A stretch of DNA of 20,464 nucleotides. Source: a virus. The translations under genes and the position numbers were made by a program. The stretch's first letter is position 1. Every line of letters starts with the position of its first letter. Where the stretch lies: positions 9,744-30,207 of the IMG/VR virus record IMGVR_UViG_3300000117_000149; one strand, 5' to 3'. Below are positions 1-20,464 of the stretch, piece by piece. Under the pieces are notes generated by a model. The model saw only the letters and a list, made by a program, of their open reading frames with translations. It ran no database searches and had not been told where the DNA came from.

Positions 1-15
1 TTTGTTGCAGAAGAT

Positions 16-1650
16 ATGGGTATTGACCAAAGCGTTGTAGCAAGAATGTTATTAGCGTTTAAAGAAGATAAAGCTGTATTAGAAGCAAGAGAAGGATGGA
101 ATATACCAGAGGAAGCAACAGCTTCTTTAGAATCATTTGAAAAATTTAGAGATAGATACTTCTTAACAGAGACTGGACAACCTTACGAAACCGCTAAGTT
201 CCATAAGAACTGGATTAAAAATATTTTAAAAGCTATAGATAAAGGTGAGCAGCTGATGATATTGTCACCTCCTCGACATGGTAAGACTGACTTGTTGACA
301 CATTTTGCTGTGTGGCAGATATGTAAAAACCCTAACATAAGAATTATGTGGGTAGGTGGTAATGAAGATATATCTAAAAATGCTGTAGGTTCTGTATTAG
401 ACCACTTAGAAAATAACGAACAATTAATAGAAGATTTTTGTGGACCAGGAGAAACTTTTAAACCTAAGAGTAGAACTGGTAAGACCTGGAGTTCTGGACA
501 GTTTACAGTTAAAACCAGGACAGTTACTGGTATTAAATCACCGACTATGGTTGCTGTAGGTAAAGGTGGAAAGATTCTTTCACGTGACTGTGACTTGATT
601 ATTGCTGATGACATTGAGGACCACTCTACAACAATACAACCTAGTTCAAGAGAACAAACTAAACGATGGTGGACAACAACACTATCTTCACGTAAAGAGG
701 AACACACAGCAATTCTTGTAATTGGTTCTAGGCAACACCCAGATGATTTATATAATTCATTAATTGATAACGATGAATGGAAAAAAATAATTGAATCCGC
801 ACATAGTTTAGAAATACCTATTGATTCTGGTCTAGACAAAGACCACAAGAAACACATGTTATGGGCAAGTAAAAGAAGTTATAAGTGGTTAATGGCACAG
901 AGAAGGAATGCAGAAACGACTGGTGGGTTAGCTATATTTGAAATGGTATATCTTAACCGACCATTCTCCGAAGGGCTGCAGATGTTTAAAGTAGATTCAC
1001 TTGATGCTTCAAGAGATGAGTCAAGAAGTATTGGGCATGTACCCGCTGGATGTAGATTGATAGCGGGACTTGACCCAGCTGCAACTGGATACCAGGCAGC
1101 ATTCTTATGGGCATTTAATGTTGAAGAAGGCAAACTGTACATGGTAGATATAGAAAATACTAAAGGTGGCGGCATACCCCAAGCATTTAAAACAATTAAG
1201 GAGTGGTACAAAAAGTATCACTGTTCACATTGGATTATTGAAGAGAATGGTTTTCAACGTGCCATACGACAAGATAGAGAATTAAAAGAGTGGACTGCAG
1301 CTAAAGGCATACACCTAGAAGGACATCAGACACAAAAAAATAAATTTGACCCATACTTTGGTGTAGGTTCTATGAGTGAACTGTTTGACAAGGGTAAAGT
1401 AAATTTACCTTATGGTAGTGCAGATTCACAAAATAAGAGTAATATATATCGTAGGCAGCTTTTGTATTTTTCAAATGCTGCTAGCAAGGCAAGTAGTAAA
1501 GGATATAAGTCGGATATAGTTATGGCAAGTTGGTTTCCAATCAAAATTGTAAGAAGATTACAAAAAGAATTTGTTGCTGACATGGCGCATGAATATACAC
1601 CGAGTTATGGCAATGTTGATATTAGTAATATGAACACAGCACCATGGTAA
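16..1650 (+). CDS. terL: Terminase large subunit (TerL), DNA-packaging ATPase/nuclease
   Basis: This is the motor that drives phage DNA into the prohead through the portal and cuts the concatemer. The N-terminal ATPase half shows a Walker A motif, SPPRHGKT, at residues 84-91. A Walker B-like LIIADDIED lies at 194-202, with D198/D199 and E201 as acidic candidates. The C-terminal RNase H-like nuclease half has the expected spaced acids: D352 in GLDPAATG, E409/E410 in IIEENG, and D500 in SDIVMASW. The 544 aa length is normal for TerL. The reading frame is open to base 1 (codons F-V-A-E-D precede the ATG) and no clear Shine-Dalgarno lies in the 15 visible bases, so the true start may be upstream of the window. 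The stop is 4 nt before the portal gene, the usual terminase-portal pairing. No small terminase is visible. The family call is very secure; the packaging type (cos, pac or terminal repeat) cannot be read from this window. Confidence 0.96.
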   Translation: MGIDQSVVARMLLAFKEDKAVLEAREGWNIPEEATASLESFEKFRDRYFLTETGQPYETAKFHKNWIKNILKAIDKGEQLMILSPPRHGKTDLLTHFAVWQICKNPNIRIMWVGGNEDISKNAVGSVLDHLENNEQLIEDFCGPGETFKPKSRTGKTWSSGQFTVKTRTVTGIKSPTMVAVGKGGKILSRDCDLIIADDIEDHSTTIQPSSREQTKRWWTTTLSSRKEEHTAILVIGSRQHPDDLYNSLIDNDEWKKIIESAHSLEIPIDSGLDKDHKKHMLWASKRSYKWLMAQRRNAETTGGLAIFEMVYLNRPFSEGLQMFKVDSLDASRDESRSIGHVPAGCRLIAGLDPAATGYQAAFLWAFNVEEGKLYMVDIENTKGGGIPQAFKTIKEWYKKYHCSHWIIEENGFQRAIRQDRELKEWTAAKGIHLEGHQTQKNKFDPYFGVGSMSELFDKGKVNLPYGSADSQNKSNIYRRQLLYFSNAASKASSKGYKSDIVMASWFPIKIVRRLQKEFVADMAHEYTPSYGNVDISNMNTAPW

Positions 1651-1654
1651 AAAA

Positions 1655-3394
1655 ATGAATGAATCAGCTTTATACGATAAGATAACACAGTTACATTATG
1701 ATAACCAAGATGGTTATGCAATGCGTGGTCGTATTCGTTCTATTATGAATGGTGGACCCAATGGAATACTTGCACTACTAGGTGACCAGCTAAAAGGTTT
1801 TGAAGATTGGCAAGTACCAATGCCTAACCTTATGAGTTCTGGTTTAGAGCATTTAGCACAGAAGATAGGAAGAATACCTAACTTAAAAATAGATGTACCT
1901 AACAATAAAGATTCAGAACGTGCAAGAAACAAAGCTGAAAAGATAGGCAGAATTATTACTGCGTACGATGATGTACAAAGATTAGATTTGCAAATGCCAC
2001 AAGTTGGTCGATGGTTACCAGGTTATGGCTACGCTGTATGGGTAATCAAAGAAAAGAAAGATGCTAATGGAACCCCTTATCCAGTAGCTGAATTACGAGA
2101 CCCATACAACTGTTTTCCAGGTTACTTTGGTGCAGACCAACAACCTAAAGACATGTCTATTGTAAGAAGAGTACCTAAAGATTCTCTAGCTAGAGTTTAT
2201 CCAGCATATAAAGATAAAATTATGAAGGATGTTCCTAACCAAATTAATATAGGTAGTGCTTATGCTTCTCCTTATACAGATTCATACAATGGTTCTTGGG
2301 CAAACTCCAATGGACAAGGTGACTTAGTTGCTGAATATTATAATGAAGAAGGTACCTACGTATTCCACATGTCATCTAGTACAGTATTAGATTTTATACC
2401 AAACCCACTAGGAAGCGGTCCTGCTTTCGTTGTAGCAAAGAAATTTTCTTTTGACCAACTACAAGGACAGTACGACCAGATTATAGGTTTAATGGCATCT
2501 ATGGCAAAGATTAATGTTATGAGCATTATCGCTATGGAAGATGCAGTATTTACAGAGACAAACATAACTGGAGAATTAGAATCTGGACAATACAAAAAAG
2601 GTAGATTCGCAGTCAACTACTTCTCTCCAGGAAGTCAGATTTCAAAACCATCATCTAATATGCCTTATCAATTATTTCAACAGATAGACAGAATAGAACG
2701 ACAACTTCGTGTTGGTGCTTCTTATCCTGCTACTGATGACTCACAATCTCCAGTTAGCTTTGCTACTGGTAGAGGACTTGAAGAGTTAGGTGCATCTATG
2801 TCTCTAATGATTAGAGAGTATCACACCATTATGGCTGATGCTATAGAACAGATAGATGCTAAAAGACTTGAATGGGATGAAGTAATGTATGGTGGTATGA
2901 CTAAAGAACTTTCTGGTTATAGAGATAATAAATTCTTTTCAGAAACATACGAACCAGTTAAAGACATACAAAAATCTTACAAGACACGAAGAGTGTATGG
3001 AGCAATGGCTGGATATGATGAACCACAGAAGATAGTTACAGGGCTGCAACTACTTAGTTCTGGAGTTATTGATACACAAACATTACAAGAGAACCTAGAT
3101 GGTTTAGATAACCTTGTAAGAGTTAATGAGAGAATAACAAAAGAAAAGATGGATAAAGTTTTAGAAGATACGCTTATGGCACAAGCAAGTCAAGGTGACC
3201 AGAAAGCTATCATGGCTGTAGTGCAAATAAGAAAAAACCCAGAGAATATGCAAAACATATTAGATAAATTTTTTACAGCTGAAGAACCAGAGATTCCGCA
3301 GGAAGAGACAGCAATGATTGAGGGTATGGGTCCAGCCACCACTGGTCCCGCACCTTCTATACAACAAGCTTTAGGAATGATGGGCAATGCTTGA
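1655..3394 (+). CDS. Portal protein
   Basis: The product (579 aa) would form the dodecameric portal ring at one capsid vertex, the channel for packaging and ejection and the docking site for TerL and the tail. The identification rests on several points. The gene directly follows TerL and the length is right. The N-terminal half (about residues 60-190) is mixed alpha/beta and portal-like, with an ELRDPYNCFPGYFG segment near 145-160. A long helical stretch after about residue 340 (RVGASYPATDDSQSPVS, then GLEELGASMSLMIREYH) resembles the stem and helical core of portals that precede a flexible acidic/proline C-terminus. The C-terminus is rich in Pro, Gly and Met. There is no obvious Shine-Dalgarno before ATG 1655; translation is probably coupled to terL, whose stop lies 4 nt upstream. 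The stop overlaps the next start by 8 nt. The call combines order and sequence style; a structure-based search would confirm it. Confidence 0.88.
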   Translation: MNESALYDKITQLHYDNQDGYAMRGRIRSIMNGGPNGILALLGDQLKGFEDWQVPMPNLMSSGLEHLAQKIGRIPNLKIDVPNNKDSERARNKAEKIGRIITAYDDVQRLDLQMPQVGRWLPGYGYAVWVIKEKKDANGTPYPVAELRDPYNCFPGYFGADQQPKDMSIVRRVPKDSLARVYPAYKDKIMKDVPNQINIGSAYASPYTDSYNGSWANSNGQGDLVAEYYNEEGTYVFHMSSSTVLDFIPNPLGSGPAFVVAKKFSFDQLQGQYDQIIGLMASMAKINVMSIIAMEDAVFTETNITGELESGQYKKGRFAVNYFSPGSQISKPSSNMPYQLFQQIDRIERQLRVGASYPATDDSQSPVSFATGRGLEELGASMSLMIREYHTIMADAIEQIDAKRLEWDEVMYGGMTKELSGYRDNKFFSETYEPVKDIQKSYKTRRVYGAMAGYDEPQKIVTGLQLLSSGVIDTQTLQENLDGLDNLVRVNERITKEKMDKVLEDTLMAQASQGDQKAIMAVVQIRKNPENMQNILDKFFTAEEPEIPQEETAMIEGMGPATTGPAPSIQQALGMMGNA

Positions 3395-3596
3395 TTTATT
3401 TGAAGAGATTGTTTGTACCCATCTAGCAGAAGTTGATGAAGAATGTGATGACATAATCCTAGAAGATTATATTAAAAGACAACACATCTTGCGTACTATC
3501 GCACAACAACACATGCCTAGACAATTTTTTGTAATATCAGAACCAATTTTTTTAGAAGAGTATGAGGAGGATGAAGATGGCGACCAGGATTACTAA
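3387..3596 (+). CDS. Small acidic protein of unknown function
   Basis: This 69-aa product is not a family I recognise. It is strongly acidic, with an EEYEEDEDGDQDY tail and a second acidic patch (EVDEECDD) near residues 15-22, and has two cysteines. It starts inside the end of the portal gene (8-nt overlap), with AGGA about nine bases upstream of the ATG, and its own 3' end overlaps the next gene. It is therefore probably translated by coupling in the late operon. Position between the portal and the ejection-protein block suggests a head-completion or assembly accessory protein, but nothing in the sequence proves this. No signal peptide or membrane segment is seen. I am fairly sure it is a real gene because of the tight overlaps on both sides and the lack of a competing frame. 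Confidence 0.72.
   Translation: MLDLFEEIVCTHLAEVDEECDDIILEDYIKRQHILRTIAQQHMPRQFFVISEPIFLEEYEEDEDGDQDY
3565..3570 (+). promoter_or_regulatory. Shine-Dalgarno AGGAGG that fixes the next start
   Basis: A perfect AGGAGG lies six bases before ATG 3577. Two upstream in-frame ATGs (3562 and 3571) sit before or directly against the motif and have no useful ribosome-binding site of their own. The motif is within the 3' end of the preceding acidic-protein gene. Confidence 0.8.
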
Positions 3597-3939
3597 AAGA
3601 AACGCAGCAATACCTCCAGCATCTCAAAATGTAATTGACCAATCCAGAATGACTTATGGAGAAAAAGGTCCATTAAAAGAGTTAAATAATGAAGTTAAGA
3701 ATTTAAACTTAGGTCAAGAGACACCTACAGCTGCGCCAACGCCAGGACAAAACTTAGGTGGAGCTTTACAAAGTAGTGTGTTTGCACCTACTGACCAACC
3801 ACTACGACCAGTAGAAGATGGACTGGACTTTGGTCCAGGAGTAGGTTCACAAGGACCAACAGAATCTACAGAAGAATTAATACAGAAATTTTTTGACCTA
3901 ACAGGTGACCCTTTACTAGCTAATTTATTAAAAGGGTAA
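3577..3939 (+). CDS. Small proline/glutamine-rich virion-module protein, unknown function
   Basis: The predicted product is 120 aa, starting MATRITKRNA. The frame could open at ATG 3562, but the perfect AGGAGG at 3565-3570 is spaced correctly only for ATG 3577. The N-terminus is short and basic. The middle is low-complexity, rich in Pro, Gly, Gln and Thr (for example TPTAAPTPGQNLGG), and probably disordered. The C-terminal stretch of about 25 residues (STEELIQKFFDLTGDPLL) looks like an amphipathic helix that could bind a partner. I recognise no family. The gene overlaps the previous one by 20 nt and ends one base before the giant gene that follows, so it is embedded in the same operon. A minor head or assembly role is a guess from position. 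Confidence 0.75.
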   Translation: MATRITKRNAAIPPASQNVIDQSRMTYGEKGPLKELNNEVKNLNLGQETPTAAPTPGQNLGGALQSSVFAPTDQPLRPVEDGLDFGPGVGSQGPTESTEELIQKFFDLTGDPLLANLLKG

Positions 3940-3940
3940 C

Positions 3941-6900
3941 ATGGCATACAGTACCTTTGATGCAGCTTCTTTTGCAGATGATTCTGCTACAGAAAGAGCG
4001 ATACAGAAATCTGTTGCACCAACACAAGCTACACAAGCTATGGCTAACCAAGCTTCAGCTATTATTAAAAGATTCCCAACAATAAGTAAAGGTTCTTTAG
4101 TAGGTGCAGTCAAGTTAGGTATTAGTGATAATGACCCTAGATTGGGACAAATAGTTTTAAAAGAATCTTTAGCTAAAGAACAAAATGGTTTTTCTAAATT
4201 ACGTGAAGCTATCAGTGTTAAAGAAAAAGCAAAAAGTGCATCACGTGGTTTATTCCTAGGATTCCAAAACTTATGGGAAGCTGGATTACCTAGAGGTGCT
4301 AGATATTTAGAAGGCAGACAACAAGGTATGACACACGATGAAGCTAAAGACAAATCTAAAGCATCTTTACTTGATATGAAAGCACAAGCTGAAGCAGCAG
4401 GTAAAGAAGTTGACTTAGGTACAGGATGGTTTCTAGGTAGCACTGACCCAACACAAACAGATGAATACAAAAACATGTTGGCAGCTGGTGTTGACCCATT
4501 AGTAGCTAGAGAATTTGTTCTAGATAATGTTTTAGGTGTACAGATTTACGAGCAACAAAGAAAAAAAGCAGAAGAAGCAATACAGTTTACTGGAGAAAGA
4601 GCAGAGAGATTTGAAGAAGCTGGACTTAAACCTACAGTAACTATTGGTCGTTTTTTATTTAAACCAGTAGATGAGATTATAGAGCCAGGAACAACTGCAT
4701 ACAACAATATAACTGGTGTTATAGATATACTTGCACAAATTTATGGTGACCCAACAGTAGCTTTAACAAAAGGATTTTCACTCCTAAGTAAATCTGCTAA
4801 AACTTTTACAAACTTAGACAATTTATCTAAAGCTGGAAAACTTTTTGAAAACACTGGGCTGCTCCAAGGAACAAGAAAAACTATCTTTGGACCAACATCA
4901 CAAGAATTTCTTGCTGGTAAAGGTGGTGTAAAGTTTAAACAATTTTTATGGGAGAACAATACATCAGATATTATTGCAACATCAAAAAATAATATTGATG
5001 ACTATGATTTTTATGTTGCTTTAGATAAATTTAAAGCAAAGAATAAAGGTAAATCATTCGATGAGATAGATGATGCGCTTACTAAAGAATTAGTTAATGA
5101 GAATTTATTAGTAAAGGCAACATTAAATAATGTTCCTACAGTTAAACGTGCTGGTAACAACATGACAAAAATGATGGAAAGAACTTATGGAACAAGACTT
5201 GTTACAGAAAATAAAAATGATAGTTTAGTTTCACTAAATAGATTTATACGTTTAGCTACATCAAGTATGGATAAAGATGCAGCTGCTAAAACTACAAATA
5301 AATTTATGAAAGATTCCATGAAAGCACTTAGTGCTGCAGATGCACCTTCACAAACAGCAATAGTTGTTACTAATTTCATAGAGAGAAATTTTAAACCAGC
5401 TGTTATACGTGGACTAGCAGGAGTAGATAAAGATACTTCTGTTAAAAAAGCTGCAACAAAGTTAACTGAATGGCAAACTGAATTAGTTGAACAAGGATTA
5501 AGTGTCCAGGCAAGGTTTATTGGAACTGCTAAGAAAAACAAAGATACTGTAAGAAGTTATACAATAGATTCATCTGGTGGAGATTTACCAATAACTAATG
5601 TATTAAGAGACTTACAAGGTGGAAATTTAGATGGTATTAAAGAGTTACTAGACCCAATAGTTGCATCGCAGTTAGCAGATGAAATATTTTTACCAGACCC
5701 TAAAGCTTTGATACGTTCTGCCAAAGCATTAGATGACACACTAGGAAAAGTAGGAACTAAATTACTAGCTTCTGGAAATGTAGAATCAACAAGAAGATTT
5801 ATGGATTGGTACTATGGTGCTTTATTCAAACCATTAGTTTTGTTAAGACCAGCATGGACAATAAGAGTTATAGCAGAAGAGCAATTAAGAATGTTATCTT
5901 CTGGTGTTACTAATGTTATTACACATCCAGCACAAATGATTGCTAGAGCTACAGGTAAGCAAAAAGAATCAAGCAAGATGTTGTTAGGTTCCTTTGAAGA
6001 TAACGCACAGTTTATTGATGTAACTTTGAATGGTGCAGGTATAACTTCTGCTTCCAGGAGAACAGGTGGAACAGGTAGATTTACTACAGTATCAAGACAA
6101 GAGAATAGAAAAGCTTGGGGTGAAGCATCATTTAGAAACTTTATGCAACACAAGTTTGACCCATTGTCTAGGAGACTTGCTGCAATACAACTAGAACCAA
6201 ATACTGCTGCTAGAAAAGCGCAGCTAAATAAATTAATTAAAGAAGCACAGACACAAGGTAACCCATTAAATAAACATATTAGAAAAGTTACAGGTGCAGA
6301 AGGGCATGCTTTTAAAGGAGCTGGCTTCAATGGTGCGCCAGGTAAAGCTAAAGCAGAAGAGTTTATTTACTATGCAAATGCTTCAGTGGCACAAGTTACT
6401 GGTGGAATTGTAGAGACAAGCACTAAAGGTAATAGAGCAAGACTTGCTAGAAACTGGATAGATGAGAATGGTAAAGAAGATTTACTTAAAGCTTTGTCAG
6501 ATGAAGCAATGGATGCTGCAGAGTTAGTAGGTTTAGAAAATATAGACATGGGTAAATACTGGGCAGGTCAGCTTAGTGATGTTGAATACACCTCTATAAC
6601 TACACAGTTAAGAAAAAACCAAGAAAAAATGAAAAAAGATTTCGTTAAGAAGTTTGAAAAAGTATTACCAGAACAAGCACGTGGAGAGTTAAAGAATGCA
6701 ATGACATCACAAACTAGAAGGTTAGATGACTTTGTAGATGAATCTTTTAATTTCTTTATGACTATTCCTACTAAAACAATGTCAAGAGCGCCAACCTTTA
6801 AGTTTCATTACTGGGACAAAGTAGGAGACTTTGCACAACATGCTAATGCAGCAACACTTAAGAAGTTAGTACAACAAGCTAAAGAAGCTGGACTAGCTAC

Positions 6901-8656
6901 AGGAACTAAAAATGAAAAAGCTGTACTTAAAAAACTAGAAAGTTACCAAGGAGTTAAAGGCGGCATAAACAAAGTAGAGATTATAGATAAGATAGGTGCA
7001 TCACATGCGCTTACTGAAACTAAAAAACTGCTTTATGATGTATCTACTAGAACAAGATTAGGTAATGCAACTAGAGGAATATTCCCATTCGGGGAAGCAT
7101 ACGTAGAAATCTTTAGTACTTGGAGCAGATTAATAGCAGAGTCACGAGGAAAACCTTTACGTAGAGCGCAGCAGCTTGTACAGTCAGCACAAAAACCTAA
7201 CCCAGTGTTTGATGATTCTGGACAAAAAGGATTCTTTTATAAAGACCCAAATACTAATGAAGAGTTGTTTGGTTATCCAGGAGAAGGATTAATACAGAAG
7301 TGGATGTTTAAAGACTTAACAGAGAATGGTGTACAAGTTAACCTACCAGTCTTTGCTGGTTCTTTAAACATAGCAGGTAACTTAATACCAGGTTTTGGTC
7401 CAACTATTACAGTTCCAGCTGCATTTATAAATCGTAAGTTTAATGTATTAAGACCAGGTAAGTGGGAAGAGACAGTATTGTTTGGAGACTTTGCACCACC
7501 TCGCACAGAAACTATTAGCGAAGTTATAACATCATTAGCACCAGCACCTTCTTGGTTAAAGAAACTAGGTACAGCTTTTGGTATAGGTGGAGCAGAATCT
7601 AAACGTATGTTCTCCAATACAACTATTGATGTGTATAAAGCTTTAGTGTATGCAGGAAAGATTGATGATAGTTCTCCAGAAGGAGCTAATGAAGGAATGG
7701 AGTTAGCTGGAGACTACGCCAGGAATATATTTATTATTAGAAGTATTTCACAAGCTATTGGACCATCTGGTTCTGTAAGCCCTAAGTATGAGATATCTGA
7801 TAAGACAGGACAACTATTCTTGTTTGAAACATTAGCTGAAGAGTATAGAAATATATCTAATGCTTCACCAGATAGTTCTACAGCAGTTAAAACATTCGTA
7901 GAGAGATTTGGATTTAACCCAATTACATTAGCTACCAGTAGAACAGAGACTATAAAGAAAAGACCAGTCACAGCTGATGGTGCTACATGGGAGAGAAATA
8001 ACCCAGAACTTGTAGAGAAATTTGATTTAACTTACGCATTCTTAATTGATGAAACTAATTCAGAGTTCATGTATGAACAGTATTGGAATCAGATTATTAG
8101 TGGCGATAGAGTTCCTAGAACTATAGAACAATGGCAACAAGCTAAGAATATTCTTTTAGGCAGCGTAGAGTATGAAAACTTTGTTAAAGAGAATGGATTG
8201 TTAGTAAGAAACGATAAGGTTTCTGTACAAGCTAAAAGAAATAAGAAAGCAGAAATAGCTAGTAAGTACCCAGGTTATGGTAGAAGCATAGACTATTCAC
8301 AAACAAAACCAGAGATGGATGATTTAATTGATGAATTGTACACATGGTTCGACCCAGTTAGTTATCAACTAGATAGTTCACTAACAACTAACCCAGCAGC
8401 ATTAGGTTTAGTTGAGTATGTAAAGACTAGAGATGCAGTAATTGCACAAACAAAACAATTAAATCCTACTTATACTGACAAGTCTTTTAGAAGTTCAAAC
8501 AAATTAGCGCCATTTAGAAGCTTGTTAAGAAACAAGATGCAAGGTATATTGGTTAAGTACCCAGAGTTTGGACCCTTAGCAAAAGAAATCTTTGAAAGAG
8601 AACTCCGAGAAGCAGATGAAGATATAGAATTAATAAGAGGATTAAATGACAGTTGA
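3941..8656 (+). CDS. Giant (1571 aa) putative internal virion / DNA-ejection protein
   Basis: This is the largest gene in the window and the most distinctive product. It is largely alpha-helical by composition, rich in Lys, Ala, Glu and Leu, and has no signal peptide. Recognisable local features are few: a Pro/Trp/Arg-containing helical segment near residues 630-655 (LLRPAWTIRVIAEEQLRML), an FMTIPTKTMSRAPTF segment near 940-955, and an aromatic FPFGEAYVEIFSTWSRL motif near 1047-1063. These are followed by a glycine- and proline-rich hydrophobic region around 1133-1163 (AGSLNIAGNLIPGFGP). Such mixtures occur in the large multidomain ejection proteins of podoviruses and in actinophage giant virion proteins; the aromatic motif reminds me of the 'large polyvalent protein' class, unverified. 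The gene begins one base after the previous stop, behind a weak AAGGG, and overlaps the next gene by 11 nt. No tape-measure hydrophobic repeats are seen. Function is inferred from size, order and the following lysozyme. Confidence 0.6.
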   Translation: MAYSTFDAASFADDSATERAIQKSVAPTQATQAMANQASAIIKRFPTISKGSLVGAVKLGISDNDPRLGQIVLKESLAKEQNGFSKLREAISVKEKAKSASRGLFLGFQNLWEAGLPRGARYLEGRQQGMTHDEAKDKSKASLLDMKAQAEAAGKEVDLGTGWFLGSTDPTQTDEYKNMLAAGVDPLVAREFVLDNVLGVQIYEQQRKKAEEAIQFTGERAERFEEAGLKPTVTIGRFLFKPVDEIIEPGTTAYNNITGVIDILAQIYGDPTVALTKGFSLLSKSAKTFTNLDNLSKAGKLFENTGLLQGTRKTIFGPTSQEFLAGKGGVKFKQFLWENNTSDIIATSKNNIDDYDFYVALDKFKAKNKGKSFDEIDDALTKELVNENLLVKATLNNVPTVKRAGNNMTKMMERTYGTRLVTENKNDSLVSLNRFIRLATSSMDKDAAAKTTNKFMKDSMKALSAADAPSQTAIVVTNFIERNFKPAVIRGLAGVDKDTSVKKAATKLTEWQTELVEQGLSVQARFIGTAKKNKDTVRSYTIDSSGGDLPITNVLRDLQGGNLDGIKELLDPIVASQLADEIFLPDPKALIRSAKALDDTLGKVGTKLLASGNVESTRRFMDWYYGALFKPLVLLRPAWTIRVIAEEQLRMLSSGVTNVITHPAQMIARATGKQKESSKMLLGSFEDNAQFIDVTLNGAGITSASRRTGGTGRFTTVSRQENRKAWGEASFRNFMQHKFDPLSRRLAAIQLEPNTAARKAQLNKLIKEAQTQGNPLNKHIRKVTGAEGHAFKGAGFNGAPGKAKAEEFIYYANASVAQVTGGIVETSTKGNRARLARNWIDENGKEDLLKALSDEAMDAAELVGLENIDMGKYWAGQLSDVEYTSITTQLRKNQEKMKKDFVKKFEKVLPEQARGELKNAMTSQTRRLDDFVDESFNFFMTIPTKTMSRAPTFKFHYWDKVGDFAQHANAATLKKLVQQAKEAGLATGTKNEKAVLKKLESYQGVKGGINKVEIIDKIGASHALTETKKLLYDVSTRTRLGNATRGIFPFGEAYVEIFSTWSRLIAESRGKPLRRAQQLVQSAQKPNPVFDDSGQKGFFYKDPNTNEELFGYPGEGLIQKWMFKDLTENGVQVNLPVFAGSLNIAGNLIPGFGPTITVPAAFINRKFNVLRPGKWEETVLFGDFAPPRTETISEVITSLAPAPSWLKKLGTAFGIGGAESKRMFSNTTIDVYKALVYAGKIDDSSPEGANEGMELAGDYARNIFIIRSISQAIGPSGSVSPKYEISDKTGQLFLFETLAEEYRNISNASPDSSTAVKTFVERFGFNPITLATSRTETIKKRPVTADGATWERNNPELVEKFDLTYAFLIDETNSEFMYEQYWNQIISGDRVPRTIEQWQQAKNILLGSVEYENFVKENGLLVRNDKVSVQAKRNKKAEIASKYPGYGRSIDYSQTKPEMDDLIDELYTWFDPVSYQLDSSLTTNPAALGLVEYVKTRDAVIAQTKQLNPTYTDKSFRSSNKLAPFRSLLRNKMQGILVKYPEFGPLAKEIFERELREADEDIELIRGLNDS

Positions 8657-9672: not shown

Positions 9673-10425
9673 ATGAATCAACAAGAACTAATTTCATTTA
9701 TGGAAGCCATTAAAGAGCAAGAGAACGCTGGCGGCAATTATCTGCTGGAACATAAACCAACCAAGATGAAGGGTTACAATGGCGAGATTATAGATGTCCA
9801 GGCATTAGGTGCTTATGGTATCTTAGATGTTAACTGGGACAAATGGTCTAAACAAGCAGGATATGAAGGTGCAGACTGGAGAACACCAGAGATGCAAGAC
9901 ATCGTTGCAGCTTATAAGTTTTCTGAATACTACAATAAGTATGGTTCTTGGGACTTAGTAGCAGTTGCTTGGTATGGTGGTCCAGGTAAAGCTAACACCG
10001 CTATGAACGCAGGTATCGATGCGATAGGGGACACAGGGAACATAGAAGGTTTTGGACCTAACATACAAGAGTACGTAACTAGCGTTATGGATAAGTATGC
10101 TGGATACCTAGAAAAGCAACCAGTCAATGCTGATGTTGAAAGTTATATACAACAGAACAAACAAGAAATACAGGGACCACCTAAATTAAATACACAAGAT
10201 GATGGTATGGTTCCAGGCATAGACCCAATGCAAAAGTATGCAGCTGATATGTTATCGGCATTAGTTCCTAATAGAACACAACCAGTAAGTGATGTACAGT
10301 TTGAATCACAAGTACCACAACAAGCTGGTAGCTTTGAGGGTGCAAAAATTAAAACAGAGATAGTCAGAGAGAACGAAGATAGGTTTACGATAGATGACAT
10401 CTTGTCCACAATGGACCCAGAATGA
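9673..10425 (+). CDS. Virion-associated lysozyme-like lytic transglycosylase
   Basis: This enzyme should cleave peptidoglycan, most likely to let phage DNA cross the wall during entry. The fold is the soluble lytic transglycosylase/goose-lysozyme type. Numbering from ATG 9673, the putative catalytic Glu is E17 in IKEQENAGG. A GAYGILDVNW segment at 46-55 matches the 'GA.G..Q' substrate-site motif, and YGSWDLVAVAWYGGPG at 90-105 matches the 'YN.G' motif with Trp/Tyr variation. The domain ends near residue 147, and about 100 residues of polar, partly disordered tail follow. I prefer ATG 9673 (250 aa), four bases after the previous stop, although it lacks a clear ribosome-binding site. A GTG at 9613 has AGGAG upstream and would add a hydrophobic 20-residue N-terminus. 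Location among structural genes, without a holin next to it, argues for a virion enzyme rather than a lysis endolysin. Confidence 0.82.
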   Translation: MNQQELISFMEAIKEQENAGGNYLLEHKPTKMKGYNGEIIDVQALGAYGILDVNWDKWSKQAGYEGADWRTPEMQDIVAAYKFSEYYNKYGSWDLVAVAWYGGPGKANTAMNAGIDAIGDTGNIEGFGPNIQEYVTSVMDKYAGYLEKQPVNADVESYIQQNKQEIQGPPKLNTQDDGMVPGIDPMQKYAADMLSALVPNRTQPVSDVQFESQVPQQAGSFEGAKIKTEIVRENEDRFTIDDILSTMDPE

Positions 10426-12451: not shown

Positions 12452-14328
12452 TGGCAGAACGCAAAGACATAAAAACATTACCAGAATTAGTTATATACGC
12501 TAGAGATAATGACTTAAATAGTTCAGAAGTATTCTCATTAACAAGACAGCTAGGTGAATCTGAATCTGTAATACGTGGTGCAATAGATGCAGCACAAAAT
12601 ATGCCTAAGATTACTGACCCATATCAAGATAGGTTTATGCGTGAAGCTAAAGCTGTTACACCTCCTCCAACATTACAACAAGCTAAGAACTTACTTAACA
12701 ATCCTAAAGATATAGAAAAAGTAATAGCTATGAAAGTACTCAAAGAAAATCCACCAGTAGGTGTAGATGTTAGAAGTCTTGAAGAAAAAGAAACAGAGTA
12801 CATTAAAAATTATGTAGAGACTGGAGTACTAGGTCCAGTAGATTTTAAACAAGATACAGACCTATTGATACCAGGAGCAGCAGCAATGGTAGCTGGTCAA
12901 GAACCAGGAGAGACAGTAGATATTAGAGGTCAAGTAGAAGAAGAAACAAAATATATAGAATCAGTTGTTAATAATATAACAAATAACATTGATTCTCCAA
13001 CTGGTGGAGAAGTACCTGGTGGAGAAGAACCTCCTGTTGGTGGAGAAGTACCTGGTGGAGAAGAACCTCCTGTTGGTGGGCAATCACAAGAACAAGTTTT
13101 AAGTAATGAAAAAAACCAATTTAATAATATACCAGAAGGTGCAGACTTAGTAGATGTAGAAGGACAACTCTTCTTACGATATGCTGTACCAGGTGCAGGT
13201 TCTTTATACCAGGGCAGCACAATCTTTATGTTCTATGAGGTAAAGGACAATGACCCAATAGAAGCTGGCTTTGTTACACCAGGAGAAAACTTCTTTATCA
13301 ATGCCAAGTTCTCTTATGATGACTTAGACTTGATGGGAGTTATAGCTGGTAACAGTGCAGACCTTCCAGGTAATGACCCAGTAACAAATAAAGCACCACA
13401 TCCATTTACATCTTTTGCAGAGAACCTAGCTAAAGAAGCTACGATACAACCTTGGTTATTAGACCCAGATTCAGTTGCATTAATAGCTGAAGCTGCACTA
13501 GAAGGTAGAGAAGTAACAAGAGCAGAATGGTTTTCTACTAACTGGTATAAAACACACAATGAAGCTGAACGTTCTTGGTTAGAAGAGTACACAGCTGACC
13601 CATTAACAGCTACACAAAAAGCTAATGATTATAAACTACAAGTTGCTTCAGCACTTAAAGCTGCAGGAGTATCTGGTGGTTATGATACAGATACTAATCA
13701 AGAGTTAGCTGCACCAGATGCTTTGTCTGGATGGATAGCAAACAAGTGGGTAACTGGTGAATGGTCAGAAGGTTATACAACAGAACAGTTAGCTTTATTT
13801 GCAGACCCATTTAGAAGTGGTGTAAGAGATATTAAGTTTTCAGAATACATAGATAGCGGTGGTGTTGGTGGATTAAATAGAACTGCTGAACAAGAAGATA
13901 GAGTAAGAGGTTTATATACACAATGGCTTGGTCCAGTGTTTGGCAGCTTAACAGATGCAGAAGTTGCAGAGAAAGCTGGAAGGATTAGAAACAATCCAGA
14001 CTATGAAGCAGCATTAGTTGAAAGTTTAAAGACAAGTAGATTAGCTTTATTTCCTAAACACACTAATACTGAATTAACATACGATGATATAGTCAGTCCT
14101 TATAGAGGAATCACTAGACAGATATGGGGACAAGAAGCAGATGAGACACAAGGATGGTGGCAAGACATGGTAGCTACTAATGACTATGAAGCATCACAAA
14201 CATTACTTAGAACAAAAGGTTTAGAACAAAACGTAGGACAAGTTACAGTAGAAGCAACTCGTGCATTACAAGAAGCATTAGGTGGAGCTGCTGGTTCGGT
14301 AGAAACTAACTTAGGAGTTAATCAATAA
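12451..14328 (+). CDS. Large virion-module protein (625 aa) with Pro/Gly/Glu repeat linker
   Basis: The product has three parts. Residues 1-180 are helical and charged. Residues about 183-212 form a low-complexity linker made of two exact copies of GGEVPGGEEPPV plus flanking partial copies. Residues about 220-625 are a larger folded part with many Trp residues, including TQGWWQDMV near 570. Near residues 240-290 a beta-rich stretch (GQLFLRYAVPGAGSLYQG) is followed by helical repeats. I cannot name a family. Its position after the lysozyme and the helical 639-aa protein, and before the 275-aa protein, suggests a structural or ejection component. It overlaps both neighbours by one base (TAATG at each end), indicating coupled translation. 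The flexible linker may allow the two parts to move, or may be a site of rapid copy-number change. Confidence 0.55.
   Translation: MAERKDIKTLPELVIYARDNDLNSSEVFSLTRQLGESESVIRGAIDAAQNMPKITDPYQDRFMREAKAVTPPPTLQQAKNLLNNPKDIEKVIAMKVLKENPPVGVDVRSLEEKETEYIKNYVETGVLGPVDFKQDTDLLIPGAAAMVAGQEPGETVDIRGQVEEETKYIESVVNNITNNIDSPTGGEVPGGEEPPVGGEVPGGEEPPVGGQSQEQVLSNEKNQFNNIPEGADLVDVEGQLFLRYAVPGAGSLYQGSTIFMFYEVKDNDPIEAGFVTPGENFFINAKFSYDDLDLMGVIAGNSADLPGNDPVTNKAPHPFTSFAENLAKEATIQPWLLDPDSVALIAEAALEGREVTRAEWFSTNWYKTHNEAERSWLEEYTADPLTATQKANDYKLQVASALKAAGVSGGYDTDTNQELAAPDALSGWIANKWVTGEWSEGYTTEQLALFADPFRSGVRDIKFSEYIDSGGVGGLNRTAEQEDRVRGLYTQWLGPVFGSLTDAEVAEKAGRIRNNPDYEAALVESLKTSRLALFPKHTNTELTYDDIVSPYRGITRQIWGQEADETQGWWQDMVATNDYEASQTLLRTKGLEQNVGQVTVEATRALQEALGGAAGSVETNLGVNQ
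13003..13074 (+). repeat. Two perfect 36-bp tandem copies inside the 625-aa protein gene
   Basis: Two directly adjacent, identical 36-bp units (13003-13038 and 13039-13074) each encode GGEVPGGEEPPV in frame (residues 185-208). A partial third unit (GGTGGG) follows. Identity at the DNA level, including third codon positions, suggests recent duplication or ongoing slippage rather than old divergence under protein selection. Confidence 0.9.
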
Positions 14329-15155
14329 TGGCTACATTCTTAGAAGAAGCAAAGTTACTTTATCCAAATATGTCTGATACATTGTTGCAGTTGTTTGCAA
14401 ACACTTGGTCACAATCTGGTAATCCAGTAACAGCAATACAAGAGGTAAGACAATCAGATGTTTATAAAGCAGAGTTTCCTGGTAACTACAATCCAGATAC
14501 TGGACAAGTTAGATACAATGAAACTACGTACAAAGCATTAGAGCAATCTTACATTGGTACTTTAGTTGAGTATGGTATTCCAGAACAAACATCTAAAGTA
14601 TTACTAGCACCGCAGTTCGTATCTTTATTAGAAGGCGAAGTATCTGCACGTGAGTTTCAACAAAGAGTTGGTGCTGCATACGAAGGTATCGTAGATAACA
14701 TACAAGGAGTACAAAACTTTTTCTCAACTAATTACAATGTGGACTTAACACCAGAAGCAATCTTTATGGGAGCATTGGACCCATCAATAGGAGAAGAGAT
14801 AATCTCTGGCAGGATAACAGCTGCACAGATTGGTGGAGAAGCATCAAGAGCTGGCTTTACTATTACAAGAACAGAAGCAGAGAACTTAAGAAAAGCTGGA
14901 TTGAATCAAGCACAAGCTAGACAACTATACACAGCTGCACAAAAAGATTTACCAAGACTACAGGAGCTGCAGCAAAGACAAGAACCAAGTGATGATGCTT
15001 TAACATTAGAAGAGTTTACTCAAGCTGTTGTGTTCCAGGACCCAGACCAGTTGGAGAACATAAGAAGATTAGAAGCTGAAGAGACATCAATGTTTTCTGC
15101 TAGTACTGGATATGCACGTAGAGGTTCAAGGGTAACTGGTTTAACCCAGGAATAG
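14328..15155 (+). CDS. Actinophage-style virion-module protein (275 aa), unknown function
   Basis: The product is helical and polar with no membrane segment. The N-terminal region (residues 1-60) contains SDVYKAEFPGNYNPDTGQ. The middle (60-130) has a YNETTYKALEQSYIGTL helix followed by VSAREFQQRVGAAYE, and the C-terminal third contains AAQIGGEASRAGFTITRTEA. This order of motifs is one I associate with small structural proteins near the lysozyme in actinobacteriophages; the resemblance is from memory. The gene starts in a TAATG overlap with the previous stop and has AGGAG ten bases upstream. It is the last gene before the long non-coding region, and its stop codon forms the base of a terminator-like hairpin. 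It probably ends the packaging/ejection part of the late transcript. Confidence 0.58.
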   Translation: MATFLEEAKLLYPNMSDTLLQLFANTWSQSGNPVTAIQEVRQSDVYKAEFPGNYNPDTGQVRYNETTYKALEQSYIGTLVEYGIPEQTSKVLLAPQFVSLLEGEVSAREFQQRVGAAYEGIVDNIQGVQNFFSTNYNVDLTPEAIFMGALDPSIGEEIISGRITAAQIGGEASRAGFTITRTEAENLRKAGLNQAQARQLYTAAQKDLPRLQELQQRQEPSDDALTLEEFTQAVVFQDPDQLENIRRLEAEETSMFSASTGYARRGSRVTGLTQE

Positions 15156-15346: not shown

Positions 15347-15356
15347 TTTATTAGTA

Positions 15357-15362: not shown

Positions 15363-15369
15363 TAAAGTA

Positions 15370-15478: not shown

Positions 15479-15505
15479 ACTATTCTCATTGTACTTATAT
15501 ATAAC
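15476..15505 (+). promoter_or_regulatory. Weak additional promoter candidate
   Basis: CTGACT (15476-15481; four of six to TTGACA) and TATAAC (15500-15505; five of six to TATAAT) are 18 bases apart. The match is moderate and such pairs are expected by chance in A+T-rich DNA, so this is a secondary possibility for the scaffold/capsid transcript. Confidence 0.25.
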
Positions 15506-15572
15506 TAGTCGCCTATCGCATTGTTTACCCCAGGATAATGTAGTTAGTAGAAAATCTGGGAGAGGAGAAAAA

Positions 15573-16034: not shown

Positions 16035-16062
16035 AAATTATTCTCTATTAATTAAATAAAAA

Positions 16063-16067
16063 AGGAG
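16063..16067 (+). promoter_or_regulatory. Strong Shine-Dalgarno of the capsid gene, partly in a hairpin
   Basis: AGGAG is seven bases before ATG 16075. GAGAAT (16065-16070), overlapping its 3' end, can pair with ATTCTC at 16040-16045, plus a G-U pair, around a 17-nt A+T-rich loop. The stem is short, so any effect on translation would be mild. Confidence 0.6.
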
Positions 16068-16074
16068 AATTAAA

Positions 16075-17013
16075 ATGGGAGTAGTAACAGGAATGGGCGA
16101 TTCTTATGATTTGCCCAATTACGTTGGCGAGTTATTCAACATAACCCCTAACGACACACCTTTCCTATCAGCCATCGGTGGCATGACAGGCGGTAAATCT
16201 GTAACTTCTAAACAATTCACTTGGCAAACAGTGGACAACGCAGCAGCTGACCAAACAGTAGCAGTTGAAGGTGCGGACCCATCATTTGCAGAGAGAACAA
16301 GAAGCGAAGTAACTAACGTTACACAGATTATGCAATATGGTGTAAACGTTTCCTATACAAAGCAAGCAGCTGTAGGAAACTTAAGTGGACAATCTATCAT
16401 TGGTAACCAACCAGTTCAAGATGAATTGGCGTTTCAATTAGATATGTCACTAAAAAGAGCTGCAAGAGACATAGAGCATACCTTTATACAAGGTGCTTTT
16501 GTCGCTGATACAGATGTATCAACAGCTCGTAAATCAAGAGGAATGCTCACAGCAGTAACAACTAACGAAGTTGCAGGTGGAGCAGCAACTCTTACACAAG
16601 CTATGGTAGATTCAGCTATGAAAAAAATGGCAGATTCTGGAGCTCCTTTCGAGCAACCAGTTATCTTTGCTAATGCTTTTCAAAAGCAAAAGCTATCATC
16701 AATCTATTCAAGTGCGTTAGCATTAGCGCCAAGAGATAGAACAATCGGTGGTGTTAACATTACAACAATCGAAACTGACTTCGGTCAAGTAGGTATTGTT
16801 TTTGAACGACACATACCAACTGATGATATCTTGATTGCCGACTTACAATACTGTAAGCCAGTTTTCTTGGACATTCCAGGAAAAGGACACTTCTTCGTTG
16901 AGCCATTAGCTCAATCTGGAGCAGCTTACAAGTATCAAGTCTATGGAGAAATTGGATTAGAATATGGTCCAGAACAATTCCATGCAAAAATAACAAACCT
17001 AGCTACCTCCTAA
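16075..17013 (+). CDS. Major capsid protein (HK97-like fold, SU10-type family)
   Basis: The product (312 aa) forms the icosahedral shell. The N-terminus has the pattern NYVGELFNITPNDTPFLSAIGG, which resembles the 'DUF5309/SU10 major capsid' family, followed by TSKQFTWQTVDNAA, an acidic EGADPSF and NVTQIMQYGVNVSYT. A long helix containing LDMSLKRAARDIEHTF (about residues 122-140) fits the HK97 spine helix, and the C-terminal half is beta-rich (IGGVNITTIETDFGQVGIVF). The family assignment is from memory of these motifs; position after a scaffold gene supports it strongly. Of all genes here this one has the most C in wobble positions by eye, as expected for a highly expressed gene. It has a strong ribosome-binding site and is followed by a long hairpin that could stabilise its mRNA. 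Confidence 0.92.
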   Translation: MGVVTGMGDSYDLPNYVGELFNITPNDTPFLSAIGGMTGGKSVTSKQFTWQTVDNAAADQTVAVEGADPSFAERTRSEVTNVTQIMQYGVNVSYTKQAAVGNLSGQSIIGNQPVQDELAFQLDMSLKRAARDIEHTFIQGAFVADTDVSTARKSRGMLTAVTTNEVAGGAATLTQAMVDSAMKKMADSGAPFEQPVIFANAFQKQKLSSIYSSALALAPRDRTIGGVNITTIETDFGQVGIVFERHIPTDDILIADLQYCKPVFLDIPGKGHFFVEPLAQSGAAYKYQVYGEIGLEYGPEQFHAKITNLATS

Positions 17014-17033
17014 TTAGGGGATAGATAGTATAT

Positions 17034-17069
17034 TTATTAGAGGGAGATAAATACTTCTCCCTCTAGTAA
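17034..17069 (+). terminator. Long perfect hairpin after the capsid gene, without a U-tract
   Basis: TAGAGGGAGA (17038-17047) and TCTCCCTCTA (17056-17065) form a perfect 10-bp stem around TAAATACT. The stem extends outward by one G-U and three A-T pairs to 17034 and 17069. No run of T follows on either strand. It may be a partial terminator, an RNase barrier that stabilises capsid mRNA, or a processing site. The next ATG is 12 bases downstream. Confidence 0.72.
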
Positions 17070-17080
17070 TATGGAGATAT

Positions 17081-17983
17081 ATGGCAGCAGTAAGCACACT
17101 TGTAGATAGAATATATAGAGATTTTTTAAATAAACCAGATGACTTATCTGCATTCTCTAGGTTAGAAGGAGCTATAAATAATTCAGTTACTTCTTTAACC
17201 TACGAAAATAACTTGTTTAGTGCTGAAGAAGAGAATCTTTTAGGTAATGGTGCCTTAATAGAGATTGACCAGGAGTTAATGCTAGTTACTTCAGCTAATA
17301 CTTCTACCAGAACTTTAACTGTATCAAGAGGATACGCAGGTACAGATGCTGCTTCTCATGCAGATGAAGTTAACTTATATGTTAATCCTACGTTCCCTCG
17401 TAAGTCTGTGTTTGATGCAGTAGCTGATAACATCGAGAGACTATACCCAAGTTTATATAATGTAACTACAACTAATGTAACTTCTAACTCTACCTTTGCA
17501 GAAGTACCAGCAACTACAGTTCTTGTAATTAATTCTTATGTACAGAACTCTTCTGGTGCGCAATATACATCAGCAGGAATAGAGTTACTTACTAACTTCC
17601 CACCATCTTCAACAGGTGCAGCTGTACAGTTTTCTAATACATCACTAGGTAAAACAGTTTACTTAGTTGTTAAAAGAAAATTTGCTAGACCATCTACTGA
17701 AACAGATGACTTAACAACTTTATGTTTGCTAGAAGATAACTACCAACAAATTGTTATGGTAGGAGCAGTAGCAGATATTATGGGAGCAACAGATGTAGAT
17801 GCTTCTACACAAGAATTTATTACAGAGAAATTAGCTGCAGAGAGTTACCCAGTTGGTTCTGGTGAAAGATTAAGAAACGCTTTGCTAAGATTAAGGTCGT
17901 TACTTATTGATGAAGCAAGAGGAGATTTACGCAGCTTATATCCACAAGCAGTAGCAATAAGCAACATTAACTACAGTGCATAA
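17081..17983 (+). CDS. Head-tail connector / tail adaptor-like protein
   Basis: The product (300 aa) has three visible parts. An N-terminal helix opens with STLVDRIYRDFLNKP. A beta-rich module at about residues 55-102 contains GALIEIDQELMLVTS and LTVSRGYAGTDAASHA, a motif widely found in phage adaptor, baseplate and fibre proteins. A C-terminal helical part at 205-285 (LEDNYQQIVMVGAVADIMGA, then RLRNALLRLRSLLIDEARGD) resembles helical-bundle adaptors that sit under the portal. The gene lies between the capsid gene and a propeller-like tail gene, the place of tubular protein A (gp11-like) in short-tailed phages; that equivalence is inferred. GGAG four bases before the ATG is the likely ribosome-binding site. 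The stop overlaps the next start (TAATG). Confidence 0.68.
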   Translation: MAAVSTLVDRIYRDFLNKPDDLSAFSRLEGAINNSVTSLTYENNLFSAEEENLLGNGALIEIDQELMLVTSANTSTRTLTVSRGYAGTDAASHADEVNLYVNPTFPRKSVFDAVADNIERLYPSLYNVTTTNVTSNSTFAEVPATTVLVINSYVQNSSGAQYTSAGIELLTNFPPSSTGAAVQFSNTSLGKTVYLVVKRKFARPSTETDDLTTLCLLEDNYQQIVMVGAVADIMGATDVDASTQEFITEKLAAESYPVGSGERLRNALLRLRSLLIDEARGDLRSLYPQAVAISNINYSA

Positions 17984-19893
17984 TGTCTGTATTACCTTCA
18001 CCCTCTAATACATCTGAACCTAAGTCACAAGGATTTGAAGCAAACCTAGATGATTTATTCTTACGCTTTGCTGTTGGACCAGGAAGGCAGATGAATATAA
18101 ACACTGCTCCTCTCCAGGCACAAGCTATACAAACATCAGAAACACCAGAAGATTTCCAACAGGAGTTTGGTCAAATATTCTCCAGGACAGATTTTGCTGG
18201 TGGTGGTGGTTTAGACAAAGCACATAGAAGAAACGCAGCTGATACAGATTTCTCTAGGTTTTGGGATAGTAAAGGTATCGATGTCTTTAGCGGCAAAGAA
18301 GCTGGTGAAGAATATAAAGTATCATTACTCCACGATACTGATGAAGTACAAACATCTAGTGAAACAAATCTTTACATGCAAGAGTTAGGTGGAGAAATAT
18401 TTTATGCTTCTGGAGCTGTACTAAAAATAATAGCAACACCATTAACAGGTAGTGCTGCAGATGATGGAACTCCTAGTGGTGGCAATAACATTACTGGTAT
18501 GGCTATCTTAGGAACTAAATTATACCTAGTAGCTAATGGAGATATCTATATAAGAAACAGTGCTGGTAGCTATGCAGTACATAACAATCACAAAACTTTT
18601 GACAATATATGGAGTATGAAAGGTAGATTAGTTGCAAGTGGCACCAATGGAGAACTTTATGAAGTAACAGATACTTCTAATCCAGCAACAATAAAAGCAT
18701 TACCAACAGGTAGTTCTTGGACAGATGTTACAGATGGTGGTGCAGTAGTTCTTGCTTGTGCAGATGATGGCTATATATATTCTTTAGCAGATGAATCATC
18801 TACATTAACAATTAAAGGACAAACTTTTGTAGAAGGTGAAGTACCTAATGCAATAGATGCAGCACAAGGATTTATATTCTATGGTACTTATCAGAACACA
18901 GCTAGTGGAAAGATAGGTAGATTATATAGAGCAGAGATAACTAATGCTAATAGTTTATATGTCTTGATTAATGCACAATTAATAAAACAATGGGGTGATG
19001 GAGCTTCTACTTTAGACCAGGCACCATACAGAATTATATCTACAAGAGATAGTATCTATACAGGTATTATTGATAGCGCTAGCAAAACTAATTTGTGGCG
19101 ATACTACTTACCAACAGGTGGTATAGCTAGAGACTTAGAGTTTGCTGAAAGCGGCATTGTTAAAGGTATAGCTGTTTTCTCTGATAGATTGTTTTCTACT
19201 GTATCTGCTGGTGGTTCTTATAGAGAAAGTACAAACTACGTAGCTACAGGATATATCATTACACCGCTTGCAGATTTCTTTACATCAGAAAAGAAACAGT
19301 GGGTAGGTGCAAAGCTAAATACTAATGTAGTAAATTCTGGTTCAGTAAAGTTATACAGTTCTACTATTGCTTCTGATATAAATAATCCAACAGCTACCAC
19401 ATGGTCCGAACAAGTATCTGTATTTTCTGGTACTGGTGGAGATGAAGAGGTTATGACTCTAGTAGATGGTAGATGGATAGCAGGTAAAATAGAACTTAAT
19501 ACTGATGATGTTACACAAACACCAGAGATGTTAGCTTTTGCTATTAGAGGTTTCCAGTTAGTCAATGACTTAGTTGTTGATATGCCTATTAATATATCGG
19601 ACCAAGTAGAGCGACCATTCAGAAAAGCTTTAAGAGTTAATGGTCAAGGTGATTTGGTTTACCAGGCGTTAAGAAATAAAGAAGGTAAGAATGTTCAATT
19701 AGAGATATTCAGACCAGATACTTTATTACGAGGTATAATAGAAAATGTTAGCAGTCCTATTGAGGAGATAAGTCCTAGAGGTTCTGTTACAAGCTATTGC
19801 TTAGTTAGATTTAGAGGTAGTAAAGTAATACAAACTTCAACATCTGGAGTAGGATTAGGAATAGAACTATTAGGAGTAGGAAAACTAGGATAG
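17983..19893 (+). CDS. Tail hub/nozzle-like protein with beta-propeller repeats
   Basis: The product is 636 aa. From about residue 160 to 420 it contains recurring blade-like units: GMAILGTKLYLVANGDIYI, WSMKGRLVASGTNGELYEV, GAVVLACADDGYIYSLADE, RIISTRDSIYTGIID and IAVFSDRLFSTVSAGG. Each is a pair of short beta strands followed by a turn, as in beta-propellers. The N-terminus (DLFLRFAVGPGRQMN, and a Gly-rich segment with DFAGGGGLDKA) is tail-tube-like, and the C-terminal 200 residues are beta-rich (GRWIAGKIELNTDD, then FRGSKVIQ). Podoviral nozzle proteins such as T7 gp12 are built on a propeller, and the adjacent connector-like gene fits that pairing; this is an inference. Translation is coupled by a one-base overlap at the start, and no Shine-Dalgarno is visible. 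Confidence 0.68.
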   Translation: MSVLPSPSNTSEPKSQGFEANLDDLFLRFAVGPGRQMNINTAPLQAQAIQTSETPEDFQQEFGQIFSRTDFAGGGGLDKAHRRNAADTDFSRFWDSKGIDVFSGKEAGEEYKVSLLHDTDEVQTSSETNLYMQELGGEIFYASGAVLKIIATPLTGSAADDGTPSGGNNITGMAILGTKLYLVANGDIYIRNSAGSYAVHNNHKTFDNIWSMKGRLVASGTNGELYEVTDTSNPATIKALPTGSSWTDVTDGGAVVLACADDGYIYSLADESSTLTIKGQTFVEGEVPNAIDAAQGFIFYGTYQNTASGKIGRLYRAEITNANSLYVLINAQLIKQWGDGASTLDQAPYRIISTRDSIYTGIIDSASKTNLWRYYLPTGGIARDLEFAESGIVKGIAVFSDRLFSTVSAGGSYRESTNYVATGYIITPLADFFTSEKKQWVGAKLNTNVVNSGSVKLYSSTIASDINNPTATTWSEQVSVFSGTGGDEEVMTLVDGRWIAGKIELNTDDVTQTPEMLAFAIRGFQLVNDLVVDMPINISDQVERPFRKALRVNGQGDLVYQALRNKEGKNVQLEIFRPDTLLRGIIENVSSPIEEISPRGSVTSYCLVRFRGSKVIQTSTSGVGLGIELLGVGKLG

Positions 19894-19894
19894 A

Positions 19895-20464
19895 ATGACA
19901 GCACAAGAAACTAACTTATTAAACGCTTATGAGACAACCTTAACAGGTACTATCGGTGCATCTGACTTAACTCTTACAGTAAACTCTGTAGTAGATTCAG
20001 CTTCTAATACATTAACAGCACCTTGTTATTTAGTTTTAAATCCAGATAGTGCAACTAATAGAGAAGTAATCCTTGTAACTAGCATTAATGTTGGTACAAA
20101 AACACTGACACTAGACAATATAAACAAAAGATTTTTAACAGGTTCTGCTGCAACATCTGGATTATCACATGCTTCTGGTTCTGTTGTACGTATGTCTCCA
20201 CTTCAACAACACATAGAAGATTTAAACGACAGAATAGATGTCAACTTTAACACAGCTGGTACGCAAATAGTTGCAGGTAATGCAGTAAAAGATGAAGATG
20301 ATATGTCATCTGATAGTGCAGTACATGTATCAACGCAGCAGTCTATTAAAGCTTATGTGGATAGCCAGGTAACAGCACAAGACTTAGACTTTACTGGTAC
20401 AACTGGTACAGGACAAGTAGATTTAGATAGTCAAACATTAAACATTGTTGGTACTACTAATGAA
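19895..20464 (+). CDS. Tail fibre / receptor-binding protein, N-terminal part (runs off window)
   Basis: An open frame of 190 codons starts at ATG 19895, one base after the previous stop and preceded by AGGA, and is still open at the last base. Residues about 14-103 form the same type of beta module as in the connector-like gene (REVILVTSINVGTKTLTLDN, then SGLSHASGSVVRM). Next comes LQQHIEDLNDRIDVNFN, a short trimerising helix. A Gly/Ser/Asp-rich repeat then begins: STQQSIKAYVDSQVTAQDLD followed by GTGQVDLDSQTLNIVGT. That last pattern is typical of phage tail fibre shafts in marine phages. The N-terminus would attach to the tail, and the missing C-terminus would carry receptor binding. A fibre call is well supported by this part; length and specificity are unknown. 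Confidence 0.82.
   Translation, partial: MTAQETNLLNAYETTLTGTIGASDLTLTVNSVVDSASNTLTAPCYLVLNPDSATNREVILVTSINVGTKTLTLDNINKRFLTGSAATSGLSHASGSVVRMSPLQQHIEDLNDRIDVNFNTAGTQIVAGNAVKDEDDMSSDSAVHVSTQQSIKAYVDSQVTAQDLDFTGTTGTGQVDLDSQTLNIVGTTNE

Follow-up and report, generated by a model that had tools for sequence, protein, structure and literature searches.

Why does a stretch of phage DNA in which GAT is found 459 times and ATC 208 times not contain a single GATC? The stretch, here called the window, consists of 20,464 bases and corresponds to positions 9,744-30,207 of the 30,207-base virus record IMGVR_UViG_3300000117_000149. The GC content of the phage is 36%. Judged from its genes, the window covers the structural half of the genome of a marine, podovirus-like phage, and those relatives that carry annotation are phages of actinobacteria.

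The genes described here are all read on the + strand and have coordinates of the window. The gene for the terminase large subunit (16..1650; phrog_38, E=2.9e-70), which served to gather and place 326 relatives, is followed by the portal protein gene (1655..3394), whose annotated matches are nearly all Streptomyces phages (29 of these and two unclassified Caudovirales records). A protein of 1,571 aa (3941..8656) occupies the same place as the ~1,600-aa gp9 of the Streptomyces phage FlowerPower, and this position suggests that it is virion-associated. The open frame at 9676..10425, also in the structural region and some 250-270 aa long, has no PHROG match; its position and a look at its sequence make it a possible glycosidase or transglycosylase. 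Farther on are a conserved phage protein of unknown function (14328..15155; phrog_8424, E=3.1e-27), the major capsid protein (16075..17013; phrog_1328, E=2.6e-80), which is 46.6% identical to the capsid protein of Mycobacterium phage Mendokysei, a conserved protein of phrog_7578 (17081..17983; E=2.3e-40), which is probably a head-tail or tail protein, and a 636-aa protein of the structural region with no PHROG match (17983..19893). The record ends within a tail-fibre-like gene, of which the 5' part is present as an open frame without a stop (19895..20464). A full-length relative of this gene is found in the related genome G001, and the relative at L083:17323-19197 contains long runs of GNLTGN/GDVTGD repeats.

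The early region of the same record encodes a protein resembling Zeta-toxin/AAA_33 kinases (L082:7279-7863, - strand). An exonuclease gene in the flank gave 789 matching records; all ten genera listed among the matches are actinobacterial, two further names being unlisted. A megablast search with the window found no match among annotated phages. The window contains no tRNA gene, whereas FlowerPower has a tRNA cluster within its structural region. G001 aligns to the window with 96-97% identity, and since window positions 2816-4406 match both of its ends, G001 is circularly permuted and, at about 37.4 kb, an essentially complete genome.

Absent words and the loss of sites

The original prediction that 20.5 kb are devoid of GATC agrees with an exact count of 0 in 20,464 bases, and because the word is palindromic both strands are without it. 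GANTC occurs 57 times. The expected number of GATC sites in the window is 65.8 from base composition, 40.2 from a first-order and 56.1 from a second-order Markov model. The strictest null used was a codon null, in which synonymous codons are shuffled while the proteins and the overall codon usage are held. For the 13 frames of the window it gives 61.8 +- 5.3 sites, the minimum among 200 shuffles being 46, so the concern that allowing for codon bias might bring the expectation close to zero proved unfounded. The absence of GATC is genuine, and codon bias does not account for it. It extends to the remaining 9,743 bases of the record (0 sites against 31 expected) and to G001 (0 against 119). Other palindromes are unaffected, with ratios of observed to codon-null numbers of 1.10 for CTAG, 1.13 for GTAC, 1.26 for AGCT, 1.14 for TGCA and 1.02 for CATG in the window, where GCGC too is at or above its codon-null expectation.

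It had also been implied that GATC would be the single strong outlier. This is at variance with the counts, since at least five other words are also at zero in the window. The codon-null expectation is 49.8 for CGTC/GACG and 31.6 for ACGG/CCGT, and among pentamers it is 31.9 for CCTGA, 25.3 for CTCAG and 24.0 for AGCCT; GGCC (8.0 expected) and CCGG (8.6 expected) are at zero as well. What the window presents is a set of absent short words, some palindromic and some asymmetric, the latter being two tetramers and three pentamers. With a strict filter, the whole record has eight such words and the relative G005 seventeen, GAAGAC, GATATC and CTGCAG among the latter. These three, like the purged words GTCTC and GGATG, are sites of known enzymes, and the purged words match type II and type IIS sites, the 6-mer entries of the lists being statistically weaker than the 4-mers and 5-mers.

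The loss of sites can be followed in genes aligned between G001 and G006, a relative which has GATC. Of the 48 GATC sites in G006, not one is GATC in G001. The commonest replacement is GACC, found at 15 of the 48 and silent, as it leaves an aspartate codon, and at about half of the lost sites the amino acids are unchanged. CATG sites of G001 in turn read TATG or CACG in G006. The control words GTAC and AGCT kept 17-28% of their sites in three comparisons. Among the one-step neighbours of GATC in the window, CATC/GATG is the most enriched, at 1.32 of expectation, with AATC/GATT at 1.11. The replacements and the neighbours taken together fit selection against GATC better than they fit a mutation bias. 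Loss of GATC by deamination of m5C was considered as a separate route and is unsupported, its products AATC/GATT reaching just the value given above.

Word avoidance among related phages

The relatives comprise 326 terminase loci, of which 320 come from IMG/VR (four terminase scans) and five from MAGs (one scan), the last being the window itself. GATC is at zero in 263 of the 326 contigs (2.63 Mb, in which 6,628 sites are expected) and CATG in 100 (0.81 Mb, 2,110 sites expected), numbers which do not represent independent events since the contigs are related and a few loci lie on one contig. Both words are missing from 44 contigs, and only seven have GATC and CATG both represented. In six of them one or both words are down to a few copies, so that the long-branch MAG contig L104 is the only clear case with GATC and CATG both at a normal level. 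When near-zero counts are taken as free, the 326 contigs divide into 220 free of GATC only, 56 free of CATG only, 48 free of both and 2 free of neither.

The distribution follows descent. GATC-free relatives are found down to 54% terminase identity, while the GATC-containing ones, with the exception of L104, lie at 65-71%. A FastTree tree of the 326 terminases requires no fewer than 7 changes of state for GATC and 13 for CATG, far below the numbers obtained with shuffled labels. Avoidance of a word is accordingly a heritable trait, bound to lineages and able to switch specificity. The same metagenomes yielded contigs of either kind, GATC-free and GATC-containing, which speaks against an artefact of the libraries.

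Methyltransferase-like genes are rare in these phages, being found in four of 46 long records: C5-type genes in G006 and G005, an MT-A70 gene in G007 and an N6-type gene, recognised by motif only, in G070 (loci L094:9177-10349, L092:15800-17498, L095:11561-12103 and G070:2784-3542). In G001 no recognisable gene for a restriction enzyme, a methyltransferase or a DNA polymerase was found when its ORFs were inspected by eye and the corresponding early genes scanned with profiles. With so few carriers the phage family would in general be unable to protect its own sites by methylation. As a side observation, GGCC and CCGG sites are present in G006 and absent from its relative G005. The idea that phage methyltransferases decide which words stay was rejected, because of the 4/46 carriers and because GGCC is present in G003, G010, G083 and G089, which have no such gene.

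Probable host restriction and the alternatives

The host is most likely a low-GC marine actinobacterium. Homology to actinophages points in this direction, as does a single 1.1-Mb actinobacterial MAG, RS345, which holds related phage contigs with 55-59% terminase identity. The 42 genomes examined from the order of RS345 have 0.6-1.1 Mb, and their GC content is 29-34% in the regions read. Ca. Actinomarinales have ~32.5% GC (PMC7771536), and the order of RS345, which resembles them in GC, is possibly the same order. Contigs of the wider phage family (L103, L104, L105-L107) have been binned in MAGs of Gammaproteobacteria, Rhodobacteraceae and Actinomycetota. Such disagreement means that at least some bins contain stray phage contigs, and a host call by MAG membership was rejected for this reason.

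Of the 42 genomes of the candidate host order, 6 have D12 (Dam-family) methyltransferases with strong scores. The two that were compared with solved structures have M.DpnII, a GATC enzyme, as the nearest (E=6e-40 and 4e-34). In genome G039 the gene next to the Dam-family methyltransferase (L113:889-1878) encodes a DUF6996/DUF6997 protein (L113:1941-2726) matching a PADLOC model for type II restriction enzymes with E=5e-27; DUF6997 is above cut-off in this one genome of the 42 and has no close solved relative. A DarT-like protein (L112:3-638, E=5e-14) was seen near a Dam-family methyltransferase of a candidate host genome. No enzyme of the DpnII family and none of the MutH/Sau3AI family was found in the 42 genomes, an E. 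coli control for the latter being positive; the ICEA family also gave no hit in the order, a search which is uninformative as its positive control was silent too. From these sequences a GATC-type system in the candidate host order is plausible, and its rarity among the 42 genomes is a weakness.

The original prediction explained the absence of GATC by selection from a host system which targets this word, and such selection is still the best explanation, even though GATC is no lone outlier and the 42 genomes of the candidate host order yielded neither DpnII nor MutH enzymes. In its favour, the absence extends over a large phage family, was often reached silently, turns to CATG in some lineages and goes along with a varying set of other restriction-like words. 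The reading which we consider probable postulates that restriction enzymes of a low-GC actinobacterial host have purged GATC and other words, lineage by lineage. These enzymes would cut phage DNA carrying their sites on entry. With no recognisable protective methyltransferase of its own, the phage would survive through the absence of sites, and sites newly arisen by mutation would be removed by selection, often via silent substitutions. Contact with hosts that have other enzymes would shift the purged set of a lineage, to GATC, to CATG or to both, together with varying further words. Host restriction would leave behind a set of avoided words which differs between lineages, has both type II and type IIS sites in it and shows many silent replacements where sites were lost. 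It should be noted that D12 methyltransferases in about one seventh of the genomes are sparse for a pressure acting on nearly all relatives, and this counts against restriction as the cause.

Another reading, to which we give some credence while thinking it unlikely, supposes that one GATC-targeting defence, maybe non-classical, is widespread in unrelated streamlined bacteria of the ocean and has purged several phage families. In the family of the window a CATG defence would replace it or act alongside it, leaving hardly any member with both words. A related proposal, which we regard as improbable, is that the pressure comes from a defence other than classical type II restriction that is common in ocean bacteria, such as the phosphorothioate-based Dnd/Ssp systems, BREX-like systems or methyl-dependent cutting. 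It can draw on the empty DpnII and MutH searches and on the purging of GATC in other marine phages (loci L452-L611), where GATC-free contigs number 58 of 59 for HTVC019P-like pelagiphages and 45 of 80 for HMO-2011-like phages, with 0 of 80 for HTVC010P-like ones. Some pelagiphages are also depleted in GANTC, while the SAR11 genomes examined have no restriction-modification systems (PMC9516812). The purged set, however, holds words which match type II and type IIS sites, and one candidate host genome has a predicted type II restriction enzyme gene adjoining a Dam-family methyltransferase gene; both argue for classical restriction.

That the phage makes, or once made, a GATC-cutting nuclease against the DNA of its host or of competitors, and shuns the sites in its own genome, appears very unlikely. 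Every gene cluster shared by 20 or more records occurs in at least one of G005 and G006, the two genomes that contain GATC, which speaks against such an enzyme, and the 8-17 words purged per genome are beyond what one nuclease would account for. The idea gains something from a protein of 131-143 aa with a YIVEVKSRD or YIIEIKSRD stretch (L092:16438-16833, - strand; L094:10440-10835, + strand; L095:3729-4160, - strand), which 5 of the 7 long records without CATG encode, as against 0 of the 36 with CATG. The protein is possibly a small nuclease. It has no match in Pfam or PHROG, its single-sequence fold is unusable (pLDDT 34.5), and a role as CATG nuclease was rejected, since the protein is absent from CATG-free G077 and G083 and belongs to no matched family.

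Avoidance of mismatch repair has even less to recommend it, and we consider it extremely improbable. It hypothesizes that GATC is lost because MutH makes nicks there in unmethylated phage DNA, an idea discussed for phiX174, which is wholly without GATC and has been studied in this respect in relation to mismatch repair (PMC5014478). The MutH family was found in 0 of the 42 genomes of the candidate host order with the E. coli control positive, and mismatch repair would leave the loss of CATG, GACG, ACGG, CCTGA and other words unexplained. Base composition, biased mutation or an artefact of the libraries deserve practically no weight, for although the genome is rich in AT and certain words with CG are scarce in any case, the Markov and codon nulls demand 40-62 GATC sites, the deamination products AATC/GATT are only at 1.11 of expectation, with CATC/GATG at 1.32, contigs with and without GATC share metagenomes, and the isolate phages HTVC019P and HMO-2011 likewise have no GATC.

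Streamlined ocean bacteria have been described as poor in defence genes, with no restriction systems in the SAR11 genomes examined (PMC9516812) and few in Ca. Actinomarinales (PMC7771536). The phages of such bacteria nevertheless appear to be under heavy restriction. The hundreds of phage contigs are a readable record of the words selected against, up to 17 per genome. This record predicts methylation motifs of the hosts, which can be checked in long-read metagenomes, and it could help to find the hosts of uncultured phages.

Comparison with known systems

Avoidance of sites is in kind already known. What is uncommon is the size of the purged set, its completeness over contigs numbering in the hundreds, and the way CATG takes the place of GATC as the avoided word. 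In a survey by Rusinov et al. (2018) about one tenth of viral genomes had a complete or almost complete loss of sites, mostly of orthodox type II systems, and GATC as a type IIM site was under-represented in 46 of 46 phages of hosts possessing the enzyme (PMC6286503). That survey dealt with isolates of known host and enzyme, whereas for the family of the window the host is a probable one and the enzyme a candidate.

A close parallel is the HF1 group of haloviruses, in which GATC and CTAG are wholly absent from 7 of 7 isolates, a fact which the authors credit to host restriction (PMC7230728). Most contigs of the family of the window likewise lack GATC completely, and some of them also lack a second palindromic tetramer, CATG. 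The HF1 group differs in consisting of archaeal myoviruses, most of them with an N6 methylase gene, and in having lost GATC and CTAG together, whereas lineages in the family of the window alternate between loss of GATC, of CATG or of both and have purged asymmetric words too.

Several unrelated phages are poor in GATC like the window. The cultured hosts of Staphylococcus phage K and of T7 set these two apart; the former has 0 sites against 76 expected in its first 40 kb, the latter 6 against 138. HTVC019P of Pelagibacter (L443; 0 against 95) and HMO-2011 of Puniceispirillum (L447; 0 against 145) are marine as well, with SAR11 and SAR116 hosts, and both have several other words purged. CATG, in contrast, is not purged in these two or in their relatives, one contig excepted. 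The depletion of GANTC in pelagiphages is also lineage-specific, and their SAR11 hosts are seemingly without restriction systems (PMC9516812).

FlowerPower of the Beephvirinae shares with the window a homologous terminase type and portal. Its gene order is alike, with terminase, portal, small ORFs, the ~1,600-aa protein, the scaffold position and the capsid following each other. It differs in a GC content of 61%, a large tRNA cluster and a normal number of GATC sites (296 against 299 expected). By its genes, the phage of the window is best placed as a distant relative of the Beephvirinae and not as a member.
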